A program made the position numbers and the translations under genes. The notes under the pieces were generated by a model, which was given only the letters and a program-made list of their open reading frames with translations, ran no database searches and was not told the origin of the DNA. A DNA stretch of 38,254 nt. Source: a candidate division TM6 bacterium UASB124 (lineage in GTDB: Bacteria; Babelota; Babeliae; Babelales; RVW-14). Below are positions 10,592 through 23,257 of this stretch, piece by piece. Each line of letters starts with the position of its first letter. Positions within the stretch are counted from its first letter, which is position 1. Location: assembly GCA_945897315.1 (NCBI GenBank), contig CAMDFF010000008.1, positions 1-38,254 on the forward strand, written 5' to 3'.

Positions 10592-11389
10592 ATGGTTGAA
10601 AACAAAAAATATCTAGGGCAGTTTGTTCTGCCTATTATTGTTGCCGCAGCTTACTTATTCTTATATTTGCCAATTTTCGTATTGGTTCTTTTTTCATTTA
10701 ACAATACAAGTTTCTCCGTCTCTTGGGGAGGGTTTTCACTGCGGTGGTATGAGAAATTAATCAACTCGCCAGAGATTTTAAACGCCTTGCAGGCTTCGCT
10801 TGTCGTGGCGGTATCGACAACTTTTTTAAGTCTTTTAATTGGTACATGTTTTATTGTTGCAAGCCGGTGGGGAGGGCGTACATCGTTCTTTTCTAGTTTG
10901 TTTTATATTAATATTCTGTTGCCAGAAATTGTACTTGCAATAGGCATTTTAAGCATTTTTACTTTTTTCCAAATTCCCTTAGGGTATGGCAGTTTAATTG
11001 CTGGTCATACATTACTTGGGCTTGGCTTTGTAATTCCTATCGTGAGAGCACGTTTTGTTGAGCTTGATCCAGTATTGACTGAGGCATCACTTGATATGGG
11101 CGCGACCTATTGGCAGACATTTACAAAGGTTATGATACCTTTGTTAATGCCTTCATTAGTTGCATCAGGGTTATTAGTATTTACCCTTTCTATGGATGAT
11201 TTCCTCATCTCATTTTTCTGTTCAGGTCCAACGGTACAAACACTGTCGGTATATGTCTACTCAATGATTCGTACTGGTGTTGATCCTATGATTAATGCAA
11301 TATCAACATGCTTTTTAGTTGTAAGCAGTATGCTTGTGTTTCTCTTGTGTTCGCTTAAAATTGTCGATCAGGTACTTGGACATGATTGA
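10592..11389 (+). CDS. potC: Polyamine ABC transporter permease PotC
   Basis: Second permease, 265 aa. An N-terminal helix is followed by LFSFNNTSFSVSWGGFSLRWYEKL, typical of PotC, and the EAA loop is EASLDMGATYWQTFTKVMIPLLMP. About six helices in total. ATG 10592 is chosen because GGGG at 10580-10583 is well spaced; an in-frame start at 10547 would run far into potB. The 3' end overlaps the next gene by 8 nt. Confidence 0.92.
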   Translation: MVENKKYLGQFVLPIIVAAAYLFLYLPIFVLVLFSFNNTSFSVSWGGFSLRWYEKLINSPEILNALQASLVVAVSTTFLSLLIGTCFIVASRWGGRTSFFSSLFYINILLPEIVLAIGILSIFTFFQIPLGYGSLIAGHTLLGLGFVIPIVRARFVELDPVLTEASLDMGATYWQTFTKVMIPLLMPSLVASGLLVFTLSMDDFLISFFCSGPTVQTLSVYVYSMIRTGVDPMINAISTCFLVVSSMLVFLLCSLKIVDQVLGHD

Positions 11390-12518
11390 GCAAATAGCCG
11401 TATTATTGGGATGTGGTGATCGCGCAAGGCGACGTATTTTTATTGTATTTTTCTACTTATGCATACTAGCTAGCTTTCTGTATTTGCCACTCTTGTTTGA
11501 TCAATTCCGCAGTCAAAAAACATTGAATGTATATGCGTTTACAGAGACGTTTAGCCCTGAATCACTTGAACTGTTTGAGGAAAAAACAGGGATCAAGGTA
11601 AATATGACATATGCTGAGCTTGACGAAGAGATTGGGGCAAAGTTTTCTATTAATGGAGGGCTTGGTTATGATGTGGTTAATGTATCAGATTTTATGGTTC
11701 ATTATCTCAGTAGTAAGAGCTATCTGCAGAAGCTGGATAAAAATCTTCTTGCAAATATATCGCATCTAGATGCTCGTCTCATGAATCAGGCATATGATGT
11801 GGGCAATGCCTATTCTGTTCCTCATAAATGGTTTATGTATGGGCTTATTTATGATACGAAATTTTTTAAGCAATCGCCAGATCAAATGAGTCTTAAAATG
11901 GTGTTTGAAAATCCTGCACAACTGCATGCAAAGGGTCTTGTCCCGGCTCCTTATCGTGTATGCATGATTGATTCTCCGTTGGATGCGTATTTTTTATCAA
12001 TGCTCTATACCTTTAACCGTTGTAATCATTTTACCCCATCAGAGCTTGCAGTTATTGCTGATAGCTTAATCAAGCAGAAACAATGGGTTGAGTGCTATTC
12101 ATTATATTCAGTGGAATATTTTCTTTTATCTGGAATTATTCCAATAGCTCTTTCTTCTAGTAATTTTATGCGTAAAATTTGGGAAGTAAGCGATCGTTAT
12201 GAATTTGCTATTCCAGAAGAAGGAGGCATTTTGGTCATTGAAAACCTCGTTGTTCCACAAACAAGCAAAAAATGTGAGCTGGCGCATCAGTTTATTAATT
12301 TTATGCTCTCAGATGAAATAGCGAATCTTAACAGTCAAACATATGGCTGGACATCAGCAAATTGTGCTGCGCAGAAGGAGCTTGATGCAGAATACAAAGA
12401 CAAGCAGTCGCATTTATTTCCTGATGCACGTATATTTAAGCGGTTACATATTCCGCTTTTGACGCCACATGCTCGTAAACGTGTAGATAGTGCATGGCTT
12501 CGAGTTTGTTTCGCCTAG
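11382..12518 (+). CDS. potD: PotD-like solute-binding protein, copy 1, membrane-anchored
   Basis: Extracytoplasmic binding protein of the spermidine/putrescine type, 378 aa. The mature part opens with LNVYAFTETFSPESLELFEE and KTGIKVNMTY, the family start. The N-terminus has a basic patch (RARRR) and one long hydrophobic helix (about residues 19-38) with no signal peptidase site or lipobox, so it is probably an uncleaved inner-membrane anchor. ATG 11382 overlaps the potC stop by 8 nt; the frame extends upstream inside potC but has no ribosome site. It is clearly paralogous to the next gene along its whole length. Confidence 0.85.
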   Translation: MIEQIAVLLGCGDRARRRIFIVFFYLCILASFLYLPLLFDQFRSQKTLNVYAFTETFSPESLELFEEKTGIKVNMTYAELDEEIGAKFSINGGLGYDVVNVSDFMVHYLSSKSYLQKLDKNLLANISHLDARLMNQAYDVGNAYSVPHKWFMYGLIYDTKFFKQSPDQMSLKMVFENPAQLHAKGLVPAPYRVCMIDSPLDAYFLSMLYTFNRCNHFTPSELAVIADSLIKQKQWVECYSLYSVEYFLLSGIIPIALSSSNFMRKIWEVSDRYEFAIPEEGGILVIENLVVPQTSKKCELAHQFINFMLSDEIANLNSQTYGWTSANCAAQKELDAEYKDKQSHLFPDARIFKRLHIPLLTPHARKRVDSAWLRVCFA

Positions 12519-12540
12519 GGTTGGCTTTGAAGGTGATATC

Positions 12541-13674
12541 ATGAATCGATATACTATAATCAAAAAAACATTTTTAAAAACGACTATACAGAAAATTGTG
12601 ATTATGAGCTTTTATGTAGCTATTATTGCATTTTTTTTATACCTCCCCATTATTTTGGATATTTTTAGTGCGCAAGGGGCTTTGAGCGTATGTGTTTTTT
12701 CAGAAACCTTTACGCAAGAATCTATTGAATTGTTTGAGAAAGAGACCGGCATTAAAGTTAATCTAACCTACGTAGAAATGGATGAGCTTTTATACGCCAA
12801 GTTTCGTATGAATGGTGCTGCTGGCTACGATGTAGTAAATATTTCTGATTATGTTGTGCAAGGTGTTTCTGGGCAGGGCCAACTAGCCCGAATAGACAAG
12901 GCAGTCGTCACCAGTATGGCCGGTATAAATCCCAATTTGCGGGGCTTGGTATATGATCCAGACAATCAATACTCTGTGCCTCATAAGTGGTATGTTTATG
13001 GTTTGGTTTATGACACGCTCTTTTTTAATAAAACCCCTGATGAGATGTCGCTTCGCTATATTTTTAATTCACCAAGCTCTTTGCTAGAGCAGCATGTAGT
13101 GCCTAGCACGTATAAAATATGCATGTTGGATGATGCGCGTGATGCTCTCTTTATGACGACTATTTATTCTTTGCATAAAGTTGCAGGTCTTACTGCTAGT
13201 GATATTGCAATAGCAAAAGGGCTCTTGGTTCAACAAAAAAGCTGGGTTGAGGCGTATACATTACATAGTGTTGAGTATTTTCTTTTAGCTGGTATAACGC
13301 CCATAGCTTTGATGTCTAGTAATTATATGCGTAAAATATACGCTATTAGTGATCGTTATGAGTTTGCAATTCCCAAGGAGGGTAGCATGCTTATAGTAGA
13401 AAACTTGGCTATTCCAAAGACTAGTAAAAAAGTTCATTTGGCACAGCAGTTTATTAATTTTATGCTTCGTGATGATATAGCAGCACTTAATAGTGAGGCT
13501 TATGGCTTTAATTCAGCCAATAAGCATGCAAGTGAAAAGCTAGACGAATCGCTACGAAATAATAGACACTTGTTTCCTGATACATCGATGTTTAAGCGAC
13601 TACATATTCCGCTATTGCCCATATCACAGCGCCAAGCTGTTGAAGATATGTGGCTTGAGGTGAGTTTTTCTTAA
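12541..13674 (+). CDS. potD: PotD-like solute-binding protein, copy 2, membrane-anchored
   Basis: Tandem paralogue of the preceding gene, 377 aa. It has the same N-terminal anchor pattern (IVIMSFYVAIIAFFLYLPII) and the same landmarks: TGIKVNLTY, GYDVVNISDY, YSVPHKWYVYGLVYD, SNYMRKIYAISDRYEFAIP and HLFPDTSMFKRLHIPLLP. ATG 12541 is chosen because a GAAGG-type site precedes it and copy 1 ends at 12518. Divergence is spread along the protein, so the duplication is old and the copies may bind different polyamines. The signal peptidase gene follows after 11 nt. Confidence 0.85.
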   Translation: MNRYTIIKKTFLKTTIQKIVIMSFYVAIIAFFLYLPIILDIFSAQGALSVCVFSETFTQESIELFEKETGIKVNLTYVEMDELLYAKFRMNGAAGYDVVNISDYVVQGVSGQGQLARIDKAVVTSMAGINPNLRGLVYDPDNQYSVPHKWYVYGLVYDTLFFNKTPDEMSLRYIFNSPSSLLEQHVVPSTYKICMLDDARDALFMTTIYSLHKVAGLTASDIAIAKGLLVQQKSWVEAYTLHSVEYFLLAGITPIALMSSNYMRKIYAISDRYEFAIPKEGSMLIVENLAIPKTSKKVHLAQQFINFMLRDDIAALNSEAYGFNSANKHASEKLDESLRNNRHLFPDTSMFKRLHIPLLPISQRQAVEDMWLEVSFS

Positions 13675-13685
13675 GGGGATACAGC

Positions 13686-14897
13686 ATGAAAACAGTACAA
13701 GACAAAGCAAAGGCGCTGAGCGATTTATATTGCTCTCGCCGTCAGGGTTTTAAGCAGACGATTGCAAATTTGCGTGCGTTAACGCCATGGGGAACGAATA
13801 AATTGCGCAATAAAGGTCAGGCGTTGTTTGACGAGGCTGAGCGTTTGTACCATGAAATTACCAAAGGGATGATAGGGACAGCTGAGGGTGGCATGACAAA
13901 TGCTATTGTGCGTAGGCGCTGTCGTAGGCTTAAAAAAGTCTATAAAGCATTGCATGAGATGAGTAAGCCTTGGTGGCGGCAATGGATCGAGGCGGTAGGG
14001 ATCGCACTCTTTTTGGCGCTGTTTTTGCGTAACTTTGTTTTTGGTTTGTACCATGTGCCATCAGAATCAGCTGAGACAACTATTTTAGTAGGAGATCGCA
14101 TTTGGGGCAACAAAATGGCCTACTTCTTTAATACGGTGAAGCGTGGAGAGTTGGTTATTTTTGATGACCCACAATTTGATATAGATCGTTCCAGCACCTT
14201 GCATTATTATTGGCAGCGATATGTTGGCTTACCTGTTCCATTGTTTGGTTTGAAAGCAGGGCCTGCAAATTGGGTTAAACGTGTGATTGCTGCTCCAGGT
14301 GATACCATTGAAGGTCGTGTTGAAAATGGGAAAACTGTTGTGTATCTTAATGGAAAGCTACTTGAAGAGCCCTATGTTAACCGGTTACCACTGATTCATA
14401 TGCAGCGTGAGCATGGGTTCATTTCGCTTCAATCCTTTGGGCCATTTATGATTCCAGATTTTTTAAAAAAAGGTAAGCGGATTGTTCGTCGATCATTTGA
14501 TATACGTTATGCACCAGAAGAGCAGCCATATTATAAAATAAGCCCAGAAGATATTATACAAAACCCATTAACGGGTAAGCCTATTTTTGATGAAGCATAT
14601 ACGCCAACCATGCGTGACTATCACGGTAGTATTGCGGATGAATTTGGGCCGTTTGTCGTACCTGCGGGCAAATATTGGGTGATGGGCGATAATCGTAAAA
14701 ATAGCGGTGATAGTCGTATGTGGCTATTTTTAGACGAAGAGCTTATTCATGGTCGGGCAAGCGTCATTATTCACTCATTAGATAGTGATGAAGCTTTCTG
14801 GGTATTTGATTTACTTAAGCATCCAATTGATTTTTGGACGCGGATTATGCGTTGGAATCGTTTTGGTATGGTACTTAAGAGCGCTGATATTAAATAA
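13686..14897 (+). CDS. lepB: Signal peptidase I, copy 1, with long N-terminal extension
   Basis: Membrane-bound serine protease that removes Sec signal peptides. A cytoplasmic extension of about 95 residues, basic and helical, precedes one transmembrane helix (about 101-118). The catalytic Ser is Ser128 in VPSESAETTILVGDRIWG, and the general-base Lys is Lys198 in VKRVIAAPGDTIEG. Box E is GDNRKNSGDSRMW. The serine box departs from the usual SGSMxPTL, with Glu for Gly, Ala for Met and Thr for Pro. AAGGGG precedes the ATG. It is the last gene before the hairpin at 14919, so it belongs to the pot transcription unit. Confidence 0.92.
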   Translation: MKTVQDKAKALSDLYCSRRQGFKQTIANLRALTPWGTNKLRNKGQALFDEAERLYHEITKGMIGTAEGGMTNAIVRRRCRRLKKVYKALHEMSKPWWRQWIEAVGIALFLALFLRNFVFGLYHVPSESAETTILVGDRIWGNKMAYFFNTVKRGELVIFDDPQFDIDRSSTLHYYWQRYVGLPVPLFGLKAGPANWVKRVIAAPGDTIEGRVENGKTVVYLNGKLLEEPYVNRLPLIHMQREHGFISLQSFGPFMIPDFLKKGKRIVRRSFDIRYAPEEQPYYKISPEDIIQNPLTGKPIFDEAYTPTMRDYHGSIADEFGPFVVPAGKYWVMGDNRKNSGDSRMWLFLDEELIHGRASVIIHSLDSDEAFWVFDLLKHPIDFWTRIMRWNRFGMVLKSADIK

Positions 14898-14918
14898 TCA
14901 TTTATGTGTAATTTTCTA

Positions 14919-14948
14919 GGAGCTGCATTCGTGCAGCTCCACTTTTAG
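14919..14948 (+). terminator. Hairpin terminator after lepB copy 1
   Basis: A 9-bp perfect stem GGAGCTGCA / TGCAGCTCC closes a TTCG tetraloop and is followed by ACTTTTAG, a short T run. It separates the pot-lepB unit from the second lepB. It may be leaky given the weak T run. Confidence 0.7.
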
Positions 14949-14972
14949 AGTACAAAAGAGATAATAACGCGC

Positions 14973-15965
14973 ATGAACATTATTCAAGAAAAAATGAAAA
15001 CGTTGATTGGTCGGTGTCGTACACTAGGCAAGTCGCGTTGGTGGCAATGGGTTGAGACAATTTTTGTTCCAATTCTTTTAATTCTTTTCATTCGTAATCA
15101 GCCAGTTTTCGGCTGGTATCAAGTTCCTTCTGGGTCTGCTGAGCCAAACCTTTTAGTTGGAGATCGTATTTGGGGGAATAGACTTGCATATCGATATTCC
15201 GCTATCAAACGTGGAGATCTTGTCATCTTTGATGATCCCTATTTCGTCTATGAACAAGCAGGTACCTTTAAGTATTATTGGCAACGGTATGTTGGATTGC
15301 CAATGCCAATGCTTGGTCTTGGTTCTGGTGCAGATAACTGGGTGAAACGTGTTATTGCAGTGCCAGGAGACACAATAGAAGGTCGCATAGAAAATGGGAA
15401 AACTGCTGTATTTTTGAACGGTAAGAAATTAGTTGAGCTATATGTAAACAGGATGCCTCTTATTTATGCTGAAAAAAAATATGGCATTATTCCATCTGAT
15501 CAGCTTGGGTACATAGCTGTCCCAGATTTTTTATGCTATAAGTCACGCTTTAATAAATACACATTTAATCCCGCTTGTCCGCTTGATCAGCAACCATATT
15601 ATCAATTAAAATCAGAAGAAATTATAAAAAGTCCGTTGACAGGTGGGCCTATACTTGAGTACGCATATTCTCCAATATTGCGAGATGAGTATGGCTCTAC
15701 AGTTGATGAATTTGGACCGTTTATGTTGCCCCCAGGTAAGTACTGGGTGATGGGCGATAATCGGAAAAATAGCGGTGATAGTCGCATGTGGCTATTCTTG
15801 GATGAAAAAAATATTCACGGACGTGCGGCACTGATTATGTATTCTTTAGATAGCCAAGAGGCGTTTTGGTTTATTGATTTGATTAAGCATCCATTAGATT
15901 TTTGGCTGAAAATTATACGGTGGAGTCGCTGCGGCAAATTATTACCAGATGTTGAAGTTAAATAA
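14973..15965 (+). CDS. lepB: Signal peptidase I, copy 2
   Basis: 330-residue paralogue of the preceding signal peptidase without the long N-terminal extension. One transmembrane helix (about 27-42) is followed by catalytic Ser55 in VPSGSAEPNLLVGDR and Lys125 in VKRVIAVPGDTIEG. Box E GDNRKNSGDSRMW is identical to copy 1. The Met after the catalytic Ser is again Ala. Both copies have an insertion between the Lys box and box E. It is followed 8 nt later by the MNT gene with AAGGAG between, so it shares a transcript with the MNT/HEPN pair and probably metG. Confidence 0.92.
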   Translation: MNIIQEKMKTLIGRCRTLGKSRWWQWVETIFVPILLILFIRNQPVFGWYQVPSGSAEPNLLVGDRIWGNRLAYRYSAIKRGDLVIFDDPYFVYEQAGTFKYYWQRYVGLPMPMLGLGSGADNWVKRVIAVPGDTIEGRIENGKTAVFLNGKKLVELYVNRMPLIYAEKKYGIIPSDQLGYIAVPDFLCYKSRFNKYTFNPACPLDQQPYYQLKSEEIIKSPLTGGPILEYAYSPILRDEYGSTVDEFGPFMLPPGKYWVMGDNRKNSGDSRMWLFLDEKNIHGRAALIMYSLDSQEAFWFIDLIKHPLDFWLKIIRWSRCGKLLPDVEVK

Positions 15966-18697: not shown

Positions 18698-19537
18698 TTA
18701 CTCTAACCACGCAATAGTTGCTTGCGTATTATATAAATTCTTATCAGTGCTGCGGCGGTACGAGTGGTACTCATGGTTGCAAATAGTGCAGATGTTGTTT
18801 GAGATATCAATATTTTTTTCATCAACACCTGCAGCACGTAATTGTTGCAGATTGAGCTTAGCATTATTAAAAAATAGCTTCCCGTTGCGTTTTATGATTA
18901 ATCCCCGCTCTTCCACCCCTTCTGGGCGTGGTTCGACAAGCTCACCATGAGCGGGAGTCGATTCTGCAATTAAATCTTCAGTTGCCGCTCTTCCTGATCC
19001 TGTCGAAGGACGAGCCCATAGGGCGAAGGGAGAGCGGATGTTGAGCGTTTGTTCTAGCGAAGTGATAAAATCATCTTTAATCTCATAGCAGCAGGCGCCT
19101 CCAGCAGGGCCAAAAAAAACAAGTAGCTTGCTCATATCGATATCAAAATCAGCGACAAGTTGTTGCGCGACTATTGTTCCAATCCCAGCAACTGACCCTC
19201 GCCAGCCAGCATGAGCAACGGCGATAACATGTTTGTCTGGGGCGTAAAAAACGAGTGGTAAGCAGTCAGCCGTGTGCACCCCAATAGCAATGTTGCGCTC
19301 GCTTGTGATTAAAAAATCGCCATCATGTGATTTGTAATCAATGATGATTGGTTGTGCTTGAGGTCGTTTAGCAACTATGCGCCCTGCAGTGCCATGTACT
19401 TGATTGTCTACGGTTAGTTGAGAAATGTTGAGGTTGGTGGCAATGTCTTCAAGTGATGCAATAAAAGCCGCACTGTTTTTAAAACTGATAGGAAAATCGG
19501 CAGCTTTGCCGAAAAATAAGCGAAGAGAGCTTTGCAT
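18698..19537 (-). CDS. pgeF: Laccase-domain protein (YfiH/LACC1 family) with repeat-encoded insert
   Basis: Cytoplasmic metal-dependent enzyme of the YfiH/PgeF family, known variously as polyphenol oxidase-like, purine nucleoside phosphorylase and peptidoglycan-editing factor. Metal ligands are His48 in VDNQVHG, Cys92 in HTADCLPLVF and His109 in VAHAGWRGS. The end carries the family SYRR. Between SPFALWA and the conserved region near KRNGKLFFN lies an extra segment of about 35 residues containing RPSTGSGR and AHGELVEPR. These are translations of a widespread palindromic repeat (18927-19017). The frame stays open, so the protein may still be made. It follows the mutY-like gene by 24 nt on the same strand. 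Confidence 0.9.
   Translation of the reverse strand: MQSSLRLFFGKAADFPISFKNSAAFIASLEDIATNLNISQLTVDNQVHGTAGRIVAKRPQAQPIIIDYKSHDGDFLITSERNIAIGVHTADCLPLVFYAPDKHVIAVAHAGWRGSVAGIGTIVAQQLVADFDIDMSKLLVFFGPAGGACCYEIKDDFITSLEQTLNIRSPFALWARPSTGSGRAATEDLIAESTPAHGELVEPRPEGVEERGLIIKRNGKLFFNNAKLNLQQLRAAGVDEKNIDISNNICTICNHEYHSYRRSTDKNLYNTQATIAWLE
18927..19017. repeat. Inverted pair of REP-like palindromic repeats inside a gene
   Basis: Two inverted half-units lie within the laccase-domain gene. One contains TTCGACAAGCTCACCATGAG (18932-18951). The other contains CCTGTCGAAGGACGAGC (18999-19015), whose complement begins GCTCGTCCTTCGACAGG. I know this sequence class as a dispersed palindrome whose translations often read STGSGR and GELVEPR in unrelated proteins. 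No other copy was seen in this window. Confidence 0.8.
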
Positions 19538-22320: not shown

Positions 22321-23124
22321 TTAATCCGCTTCTTCTAAAACTGCGTTAACAGCATTAATAGCTGCGGCCTCTTGGCGTGCTAATTGAGCAACTAATTTTT
22401 TTCGTACAGAGTCTCTGTGCTGCAAAGAGCTACATAAATGCATGGTAGGGGTAACTACTGCTCCGTAAGATATCAGCAATTCAATTATTTCTGAATCACA
22501 ACCCCTTTTAGAGCAGGCTAGATACAGTGGTGAAATGCCTGCATTATCGGGAATATCAAGATTAATATGATGTTCTGCACTATAAGAAAGCAGTCTCGAA
22601 ACGACTGAAAAGCTATTGTTTATAACAGCTTGGTGTAGAAAATTTCTCCCATTATCATCACATTGATCAGGTTGCTCATTGCGATCAAGTGCCATTTGTA
22701 CAGCAAAAACATTAGAGCTCTGAACGGCATTGCTTAGCGAGAGGTTGAGCCGAATAGCATGACGAGCCTGTTTTATTAAGTCTTCAGGGACTTGGTACAT
22801 GCCTGAAGCATCTTCTGGGAGTTGGAGGGTTCCATTGAATATTTCACGCGCAATGAACAAACGTGTTTTTTTGATAGTGCGTGTTTCTGTTCCTGGCAGC
22901 ACTATTTTAGCTTTAATAGCTTTAAGTGGATCGCGAACAATTGTGCTAAATGGTGATTGGCACGTGCGAGCAAGATTTTTTTGATCGCGGAGTGTTAAAA
23001 AAGAGCTTATCGCATTAATAGTATCAGGTCCCAAAATGCATACTTTATTAGCGGCATTAACAACGTGATAGCAGGTAATTGCTAGGATCAGTGAAGCGAT
23101 GACTGTTTTATTTGTTTGTTTCAT
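22321..23124 (-). CDS. Exported F-box-like / ankyrin-repeat protein
   Basis: 267 aa. A Sec signal peptide (hydrophobic TVIASLILAITCYHVV, cleavage near VNA/A) is followed by a stretch resembling a eukaryotic F-box: ILGPDTINAISSFLTLRDQK then NLARTC. Two or three ankyrin repeats follow around residues 135-225 (NFLHQAVINNSFSVVSRLL; SPLYLACSKRGCDSEIIELL). The likely role is a host-directed effector that recruits a target through ankyrins and a Skp1-type host ubiquitin ligase through the F-box; this is inference from domain types. ATG 23124 is used, though GTG 23127 is directly in front. Its upstream region does not clearly share the motif found before the other members. Confidence 0.75.
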   Translation of the reverse strand: MKQTNKTVIASLILAITCYHVVNAANKVCILGPDTINAISSFLTLRDQKNLARTCQSPFSTIVRDPLKAIKAKIVLPGTETRTIKKTRLFIAREIFNGTLQLPEDASGMYQVPEDLIKQARHAIRLNLSLSNAVQSSNVFAVQMALDRNEQPDQCDDNGRNFLHQAVINNSFSVVSRLLSYSAEHHINLDIPDNAGISPLYLACSKRGCDSEIIELLISYGAVVTPTMHLCSSLQHRDSVRKKLVAQLARQEAAAINAVNAVLEEAD

Positions 23125-23257
23125 CACGAAGATGTCCTGCTATTTTTTGAGCCCTGTATTATTTTAAGCTATGCAATTTTAGCTATAAACTGTTCTAAGG
23201 CAAGTAAATCTTTAAATAGCCCAAAAACATGCATTTTGAGTAAGACAATTGGATATC

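Follow-up and report, generated by a model that had tools for sequence, protein, structure and literature searches.

An in-frame inverted pair of palindromic repeats, probably REPIN-like, in a yfiH-type gene of a Dependentiae bacterium

The 38,254-nt stretch of DNA analysed here (the window) belongs to contig C8 of a 1.257-Mb genome (G000; 49 contigs, 95% complete) from the order Babeliales of the phylum Dependentiae (TM6). Positions 18698-19537 of its minus strand hold an open reading frame for a 279-aa protein of the YfiH/YlmD type, as indicated by a Pfam Cu-oxidase_4 match (PF02578, E = 2.6e-42) and by a predicted fold that resembles the solved YfiH/YlmD structures in structure comparison. 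Inside this gene lies a 133-bp segment (18905-19037, minus strand; approximately residues 168-211) composed of two palindromic units in inverted orientation and, between them, a 30-nt AT-rich spacer (18955-18984, minus strand; 37% GC) coding for approximately ATEDLIAEST. GC content is 58% in the insert compared with 42% in the remainder of yfiH. An earlier note on this DNA had described an inverted palindromic pair at 18927-19017, placed in frame between conserved blocks of the protein. The pair is indeed present and the placement is borne out, with the reading frame open through the insert and the Pfam match running across it; the units, however, extend from 18905 to 19037, as each has another hairpin and is closed by a CCGCTC/GAGCGG stem, both outside the narrower interval.

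Alignment with YfiH homologues from 29 relatives, a check the note had proposed, showed the segment to be missing in the congener G001 (the nearest relative of G000 in the comparison set) and in most other relatives. The block running from FGPAGG via CTICN to YRR spans 122 aa in G000 and 78 aa in G001, and measures 75-81 aa in 27 of the 29 relatives, the exceptions being G007 (99 aa) and G043 (89 aa). The G000 protein therefore carries 43-44 extra residues (129-132 bp), rather than the roughly 35 estimated before, and the site in G001 is empty at the DNA level as well. That the segment is an ancestral part of YfiH, retained in G000 and lost elsewhere, is improbable. An older insertion lost in G001 is conceivable, given that G007, a member of a different genus, harbors, at the corresponding YfiH loop (locus L003), two palindromes from a related subfamily, likewise in reverse-then-forward order. 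However, the loop is short in G001 and 26 other relatives, and the G007 units differ from those of G000 (GTTCG outer stems, TAGTCGAA loop) and share no long match with them outside the repeat motifs. An assembly or binning artefact in this metagenome-derived genome is barely credible: repeats attract misassembly and the genome is split into 49 contigs, but both flanks of the insert belong to one yfiH gene in one frame, and the unit family recurs in the independent assemblies G001, G003 and G073 as well as in frame in other genes.

Structure prediction, which the note had also suggested, yielded an AlphaFold2 model of YfiH (based on the alignment of relatives) with a mean pLDDT of 88.6 and values of 90 or more around the insert, dropping to 47-55 only at residues ~171-200. 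As expected for a floppy loop, the insert is thus modeled with low confidence and is predicted to form an unstructured excursion between a helix and a strand.

Elsewhere in the window, reading the sequence only, we noted two adjacent, similar frames that follow an ABC transporter operon and resemble a duplicated pair of periplasmic polyamine-binding proteins (11334-13674), two similar signal-peptidase-like genes side by side, the longer with an extra N-terminal part (13686-15965), and four ankyrin-repeat-like secreted proteins (22321-23127, 29110-30069, 32044-33021 and 36763-38022) of a kind typical of host-associated bacteria.

The two units at yfiH share one architecture. Parsed into helices, unit 2 (50 nt; 18905-18954, minus strand) reads CCGCTC-ATGG-TGAGCTTGTCGAA-CCACG-CCC AGAA GGGG-TGGAA-GAGCGG and unit 1 (53 nt; 18985-19037, plus strand) reads CCGCTC-TTCC-TGATCCTGTCGAA-GGACGA-GCCC ATA GGGC-GAAGGGA-GAGCGG. 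A covariance model scores them at 62.4 bits (E = 5e-15) and 60.4 bits (E = 2e-14), respectively, both being members of its own training set, and finds exactly these two units in the window. The conserved core of unit 2, TTCGACAAGCTCAC (18932-18945, plus strand), is the reverse of TGAGCTTGTCGAA; that of unit 1, TTCGACAGGATCAG, lies at 18994-19007 on the minus strand. A search for exact cores returned 19 in G000, compared with none for a reversed-pattern control. Within the window, the 25-nt core occurs once at up to three mismatches (0.00 expected from shuffles), and the inverted arms 18927-18954 and 18985-19012 are 75% complementary.

Across the 64 copies from G000 and G001 from which the unit definition was built, an outer CCGCTC/GAGCGG stem encloses two small hairpins, giving a length of 49-56 nt, or ~71-76 nt when one further hairpin is present. 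In hairpin 1, a stem of 3 bp carries the conserved loop TGAGCYTGTCGAA; the sequence of hairpin 2 varies (CCCC/GGGG, GGCCC/GGGCC, GTCC/GGAC or GCCC/GGGC by per-unit parsing). This secondary structure is supported by compensatory changes. In a sequence-only alignment, which covered the outer stem and hairpin 1, standard pairs occupied 95% of cells as opposed to 31-52% when slid, and 41 double-change cells were observed against 10.9 in shuffles; hairpin 1 showed exchanges of T-A/C-G/G-C at its base and of CC-GG/GG-CC higher up, and the foot of the outer stem showed C-G/T-A. For hairpin 2, compensatory support comes from per-unit parsing and from a structure-fitted alignment, which agrees with this helix. 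Single-strand DNA folding returned the three-helix shape directly for the unit at 18985-19037 (-13.9 kcal/mol, z = -3.1), and some copies do not beat their own shuffles. At E ≤ 1, no Rfam 15 family matched the units at the 19 loci searched.

A genome search, the remaining check proposed in the note, revealed ~40 copies in G000; at E ≤ 0.001 the covariance model called 37 units there and 49 in G001. Looser relatives of the unit are scattered over 28 of 101 Babeliales genomes, with 50 in G003, 54 in G073, 30 in G031 and 27 in G023. All 12 pairs of neighboring units (≤300 bp apart) in G000 and 17 of the 18 such pairs in G001 were inverted (29 of 30 together), mostly with spacers of 13-136 nt, and 24 of 41 G000 units sit in such inverted pairs. 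Direct flanking repeats of 2-9 nt were no commoner than expected by chance, i.e. target site duplications are absent, and neither a GTAG nor a CGTC tag was found within 6 nt of either end of any of 59 units. In six G000 copies, a second palindrome sits at one identical point in the loop of hairpin 1. These composite units, with a nested palindrome of approximately CCTGCCATTCGTAGCCACCTGGGCGTAGTATGG, map to L033:758-842, L040:695-782, L045:856-941 and 2697-2781, L192:810-896 and L193:857-942, and look as if palindromes nest in each other's loops. A triple nest at L036:838-971 is still in frame in a GH3/NamZ protein, which holds a second unit nearby.

Copies nested at a single point inside other copies, inverted neighbors suggestive of template switching and the lack of a detectable transposase would all fit a spread through recombination, gene conversion or replication slippage between hairpins, with no transposase involved. 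Slippage alone, however, leaves unexplained the scattered, unrelated sites with clean empty orthologous counterparts, as at mnmA (see below), and we regard this route as unlikely. A further proposal, that these are strict REPINs on whose inverted pairs a Y1 tyrosine transposase of the RAYT type acts or did so until recently, is rather doubtful. Inverted pairs with diverse spacers, hairpin units and missing target duplications do match REPINs as described (PMC8049555), but a search for the Y1 transposase family PF01797 gave no match in the 95% complete G000, as opposed to matches in five control genomes, nor in four other motif-rich genomes (G001, G004, G023 and G031), which together with G000 hold 19-76 core motifs each. 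Moreover, across 49 genomes the presence of Y1 does not track the number of core motifs, and the units bear no GTAG tag. Assignments to RAYT-REPINs or tagged REPs were set aside on these tests (no Y1, no tags).

The presence and absence of copies differ between the two congeners, and the elements have therefore moved or been deleted since these split; differences between genera likewise support mobility. By analogy with IS200/REP systems, the hairpins, inverted pairing, nesting in loops and absence of target duplications would fit transfer of a single strand in folded form.

The insertion at yfiH is one of many within genes. By count, approximately 15 of ~42 G000 units are gene-interior, ~5 terminal and the remainder intergenic, in a survey that covered the stretches around copies rather than the whole genome, such that gene-disrupting copies could have been missed. 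The ~15 interior units are in frame within larger ORFs, mostly of recognized families: besides yfiH, the hosts comprise pepA, mnmA, trmD, uppP (a pair), a HAS-barrel protein (a pair), GH3/NamZ (two units), two glycosyltransferases and a HAMP-HisKA kinase. Further units occur in leader regions, such as those of a TolC-like protein and a pseudopilin, and the in-frame hosts of G001 include mnmG and lnt (the latter by a sub-threshold Pfam match only); trmD, the TolC-like protein, the pseudopilin and the G001 genes were named from sequence, not by a family scan. In the pseudopilin-like proteins of both congeners (L033:924-978 in G000; L070 in G001), units occupy the N-terminal leader just ahead of the prepilin motif, and orthologous surface-protein-like genes (L197 in G000, L201 in G001) each have one in their N-terminal leader.

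For yfiH, mnmA, uppP and pepA, the insert was mapped against relatives. In mnmA, 26 residues (78 bp) are unique to G000 and adjoin sequence that is 95% identical in G001, and the AlphaFold2 model of MnmA renders them as a loop of pLDDT 35-53 between two strands. The insert lengths of yfiH and mnmA do not equal a whole number of units, and their exact ends are blurred. The uppP insert is missing in most relatives, and G004 (L266) carries one with the same core in the same loop; in pepA the loop concerned is variable, and G000 exceeds G001 by a net ~10 residues. That G007 (in YfiH) and G004 (in UppP) hold related palindromes in the loop used by G000 reflects either repeated exploitation of tolerant loops or insertions that are old and shared. 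G007 also has a ~50-residue insert containing STSSGQA in mnmA, at a site different from that in G000, and in G023 a unit lies close to the start of a protein whose sequence resembles arginyl-tRNA synthetase. One glycosyltransferase site is filled in frame in both G000, where the copy is decayed (27 bits), and G001, which shows that a copy can stay in frame once lineages have separated.

How can so many genes accommodate the unit? Five different unit frames are used among the host genes (yielding HPELVE, LSLSK, RQAQGER, FDKLR and STSSGRA), one frame always holds the TGA of the core, and the unit has 64% GC compared with 42% in the window. Coding adaptation of the unit was ruled out: on average 3.73 of six frames are open per unit, fewer than the 4.31 in dinucleotide shuffles. 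The idea that the insert encodes a selected peptide, be it a functional loop or a host-interaction tag, might draw on the glycosyltransferase unit kept in frame in both congeners. Yet the five frames give unrelated peptides in different genes, the frames of the unit as a whole are no more open than in shuffles, the G000 glycosyltransferase copy is decayed and disorder is predicted for the inserts, all of which renders selection for a peptide very improbable. The simplest account is blind insertion followed by survival of those copies that leave the protein working, aided by the high GC content of the unit; gene-breaking copies would mostly be lost. The inserted peptide is probably near-neutral and devoid of function, and the decorated proteins are presumably still translated and active.

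Relatives of the repeat are found well beyond Dependentiae. The note had described the family as known from unrelated bacteria, and among the matches listed, the core plus outer-stem pattern indeed occurs in Sphingomonadales, Chloroflexota (SAR202, Dehalococcoidia), Acidobacteria, Syntrophaceae and Myxococcales in addition to Dependentiae. Covariance scores reach at most ~52 bits in other phyla and up to 74 bits in this genus, which alone has units of this shape at 60-74 bits; judged by these sequence scores, the core is widespread and the three-helix shape reaches its fullest form in this genus. Given this restriction, the scatter over 28 of 101 Babeliales genomes and the scores of ~50 bits in other phyla, recent transfer is no more likely than long residence and evolution specific to the lineage. 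Of the note's suggestion of mobility or transfer, the former is supported by the differences among congeners and genera and the latter, as a recent event, is not supported; the distribution neither shows nor excludes inter-phylum transfer. The letters of the core were not found in the text of 5.39 million published papers, a search that consensus sequences printed only in figures would escape.

In our best reading, the elements are REPIN/RPE-like (RPE, Rickettsia palindromic element) and non-autonomous; they insert at many sites, and copies in frame survive where the loop is presumably exposed. At yfiH, we accordingly favor, with a probability of roughly 0.78, a REPIN-like inverted pair of a non-autonomous palindromic repeat, inserted after the split from the congener by a family that spreads without regard to reading frame and whose copies survive in loops. 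In spreading to new sites, copies would very often land beside an existing one and point the other way; at times they would nest inside another palindrome's loop. Movement would most likely proceed as a folded single strand that is copied or joined by a putative trans-acting enzyme. Insertion would be blind to the reading frame, and open-frame copies in an exposed loop would survive because the GC-rich unit leaves three to four of six frames free of stops and the added peptide forms a floppy loop. More tentatively, Dependentiae might possess a palindromic mobile-element class of their own. Such elements would move without a RAYT, through either an enzyme not yet described or a joining of hairpins linked to replication. 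They would grow by nesting inside the loops of older palindromes and, in separate genera, extend the same protein loops time and again; the class would be an independent counterpart of the RPE system.

Rickettsia and Wolbachia are the best-known hosts of palindromes placed in frame in conserved proteins, and REPs inside genes have been encountered in other bacteria. Dependentiae add a second lineage of intracellular type with genome-wide in-frame palindromes. Close empty sites, a covarying unit, nested copies and recurrently used loops make the mechanism of insertion, its tolerance and decay testable by comparison. For annotation, a warning follows: in predicted proteins of many phyla, a palindromic repeat can be the source of peptides such as HPELVEG, STSSGRA, FDKLR and RQAQGER.

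Among known systems, DDE-type MITEs are likewise non-autonomous and have terminal inverted repeats; the Dependentiae units differ from them by the missing target site duplication. REPINs consist of two inverted units and a variable spacer (PMC8049555), an arrangement mirrored here (29 of 30 neighboring pairs inverted, spacers variable), whereas the Dependentiae genome lacks a RAYT/Y1 transposase and the GTAG tag, and its unit is more complex. The GTAG- and CGTC-tagged REPs of Di Nocera et al. 2013 (PMC3733652) have a single stem of 6-13 bp with a 2-5 nt loop; intragenic copies code for 20-80 aa in many species, and the CGTC group is also without a dedicated transposase. They share with the present repeats the dispersal of small palindromes, inverted dimers and intragenic copies in known genes, and are set apart from them by the tags (0 of 59 units here) and by the 12-13 nt conserved loop and further hairpin of the Dependentiae unit.

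RPEs (Ogata et al.; reviewed in PMC2229807 and PMC3767692) have a reported size of 105-146 bp, a range that includes the 133-bp pair at yfiH. Compared by behavior and description rather than by sequence, the two systems have much in common: small palindromes are scattered in a reduced genome of intracellular type, in frame in conserved proteins. RPE inserts lie in solvent-exposed or predicted loops, and the inserts here fall in low-confidence loops of the AlphaFold2 models of YfiH and MnmA. In both systems, related elements occupy the same or neighboring sites in orthologues and recur in several unrelated conserved genes (here yfiH, mnmA, trmD, pepA, uppP, GH3, glycosyltransferases, a histidine kinase and a HAS-barrel protein). 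The RPE-like behavior proposed in the earlier note therefore holds in its in-frame insert, empty congener site and predicted disordered loop, and in the same behavior in many G000 genes. The differences are the phylum and the building block, a Dependentiae unit of ~50 nt built from two hairpins inside an outer stem, of which 133 bp represents a pair. In sum, the Dependentiae repeats function like RPEs and the intragenic REPs of PMC3733652, with a more elaborate unit.
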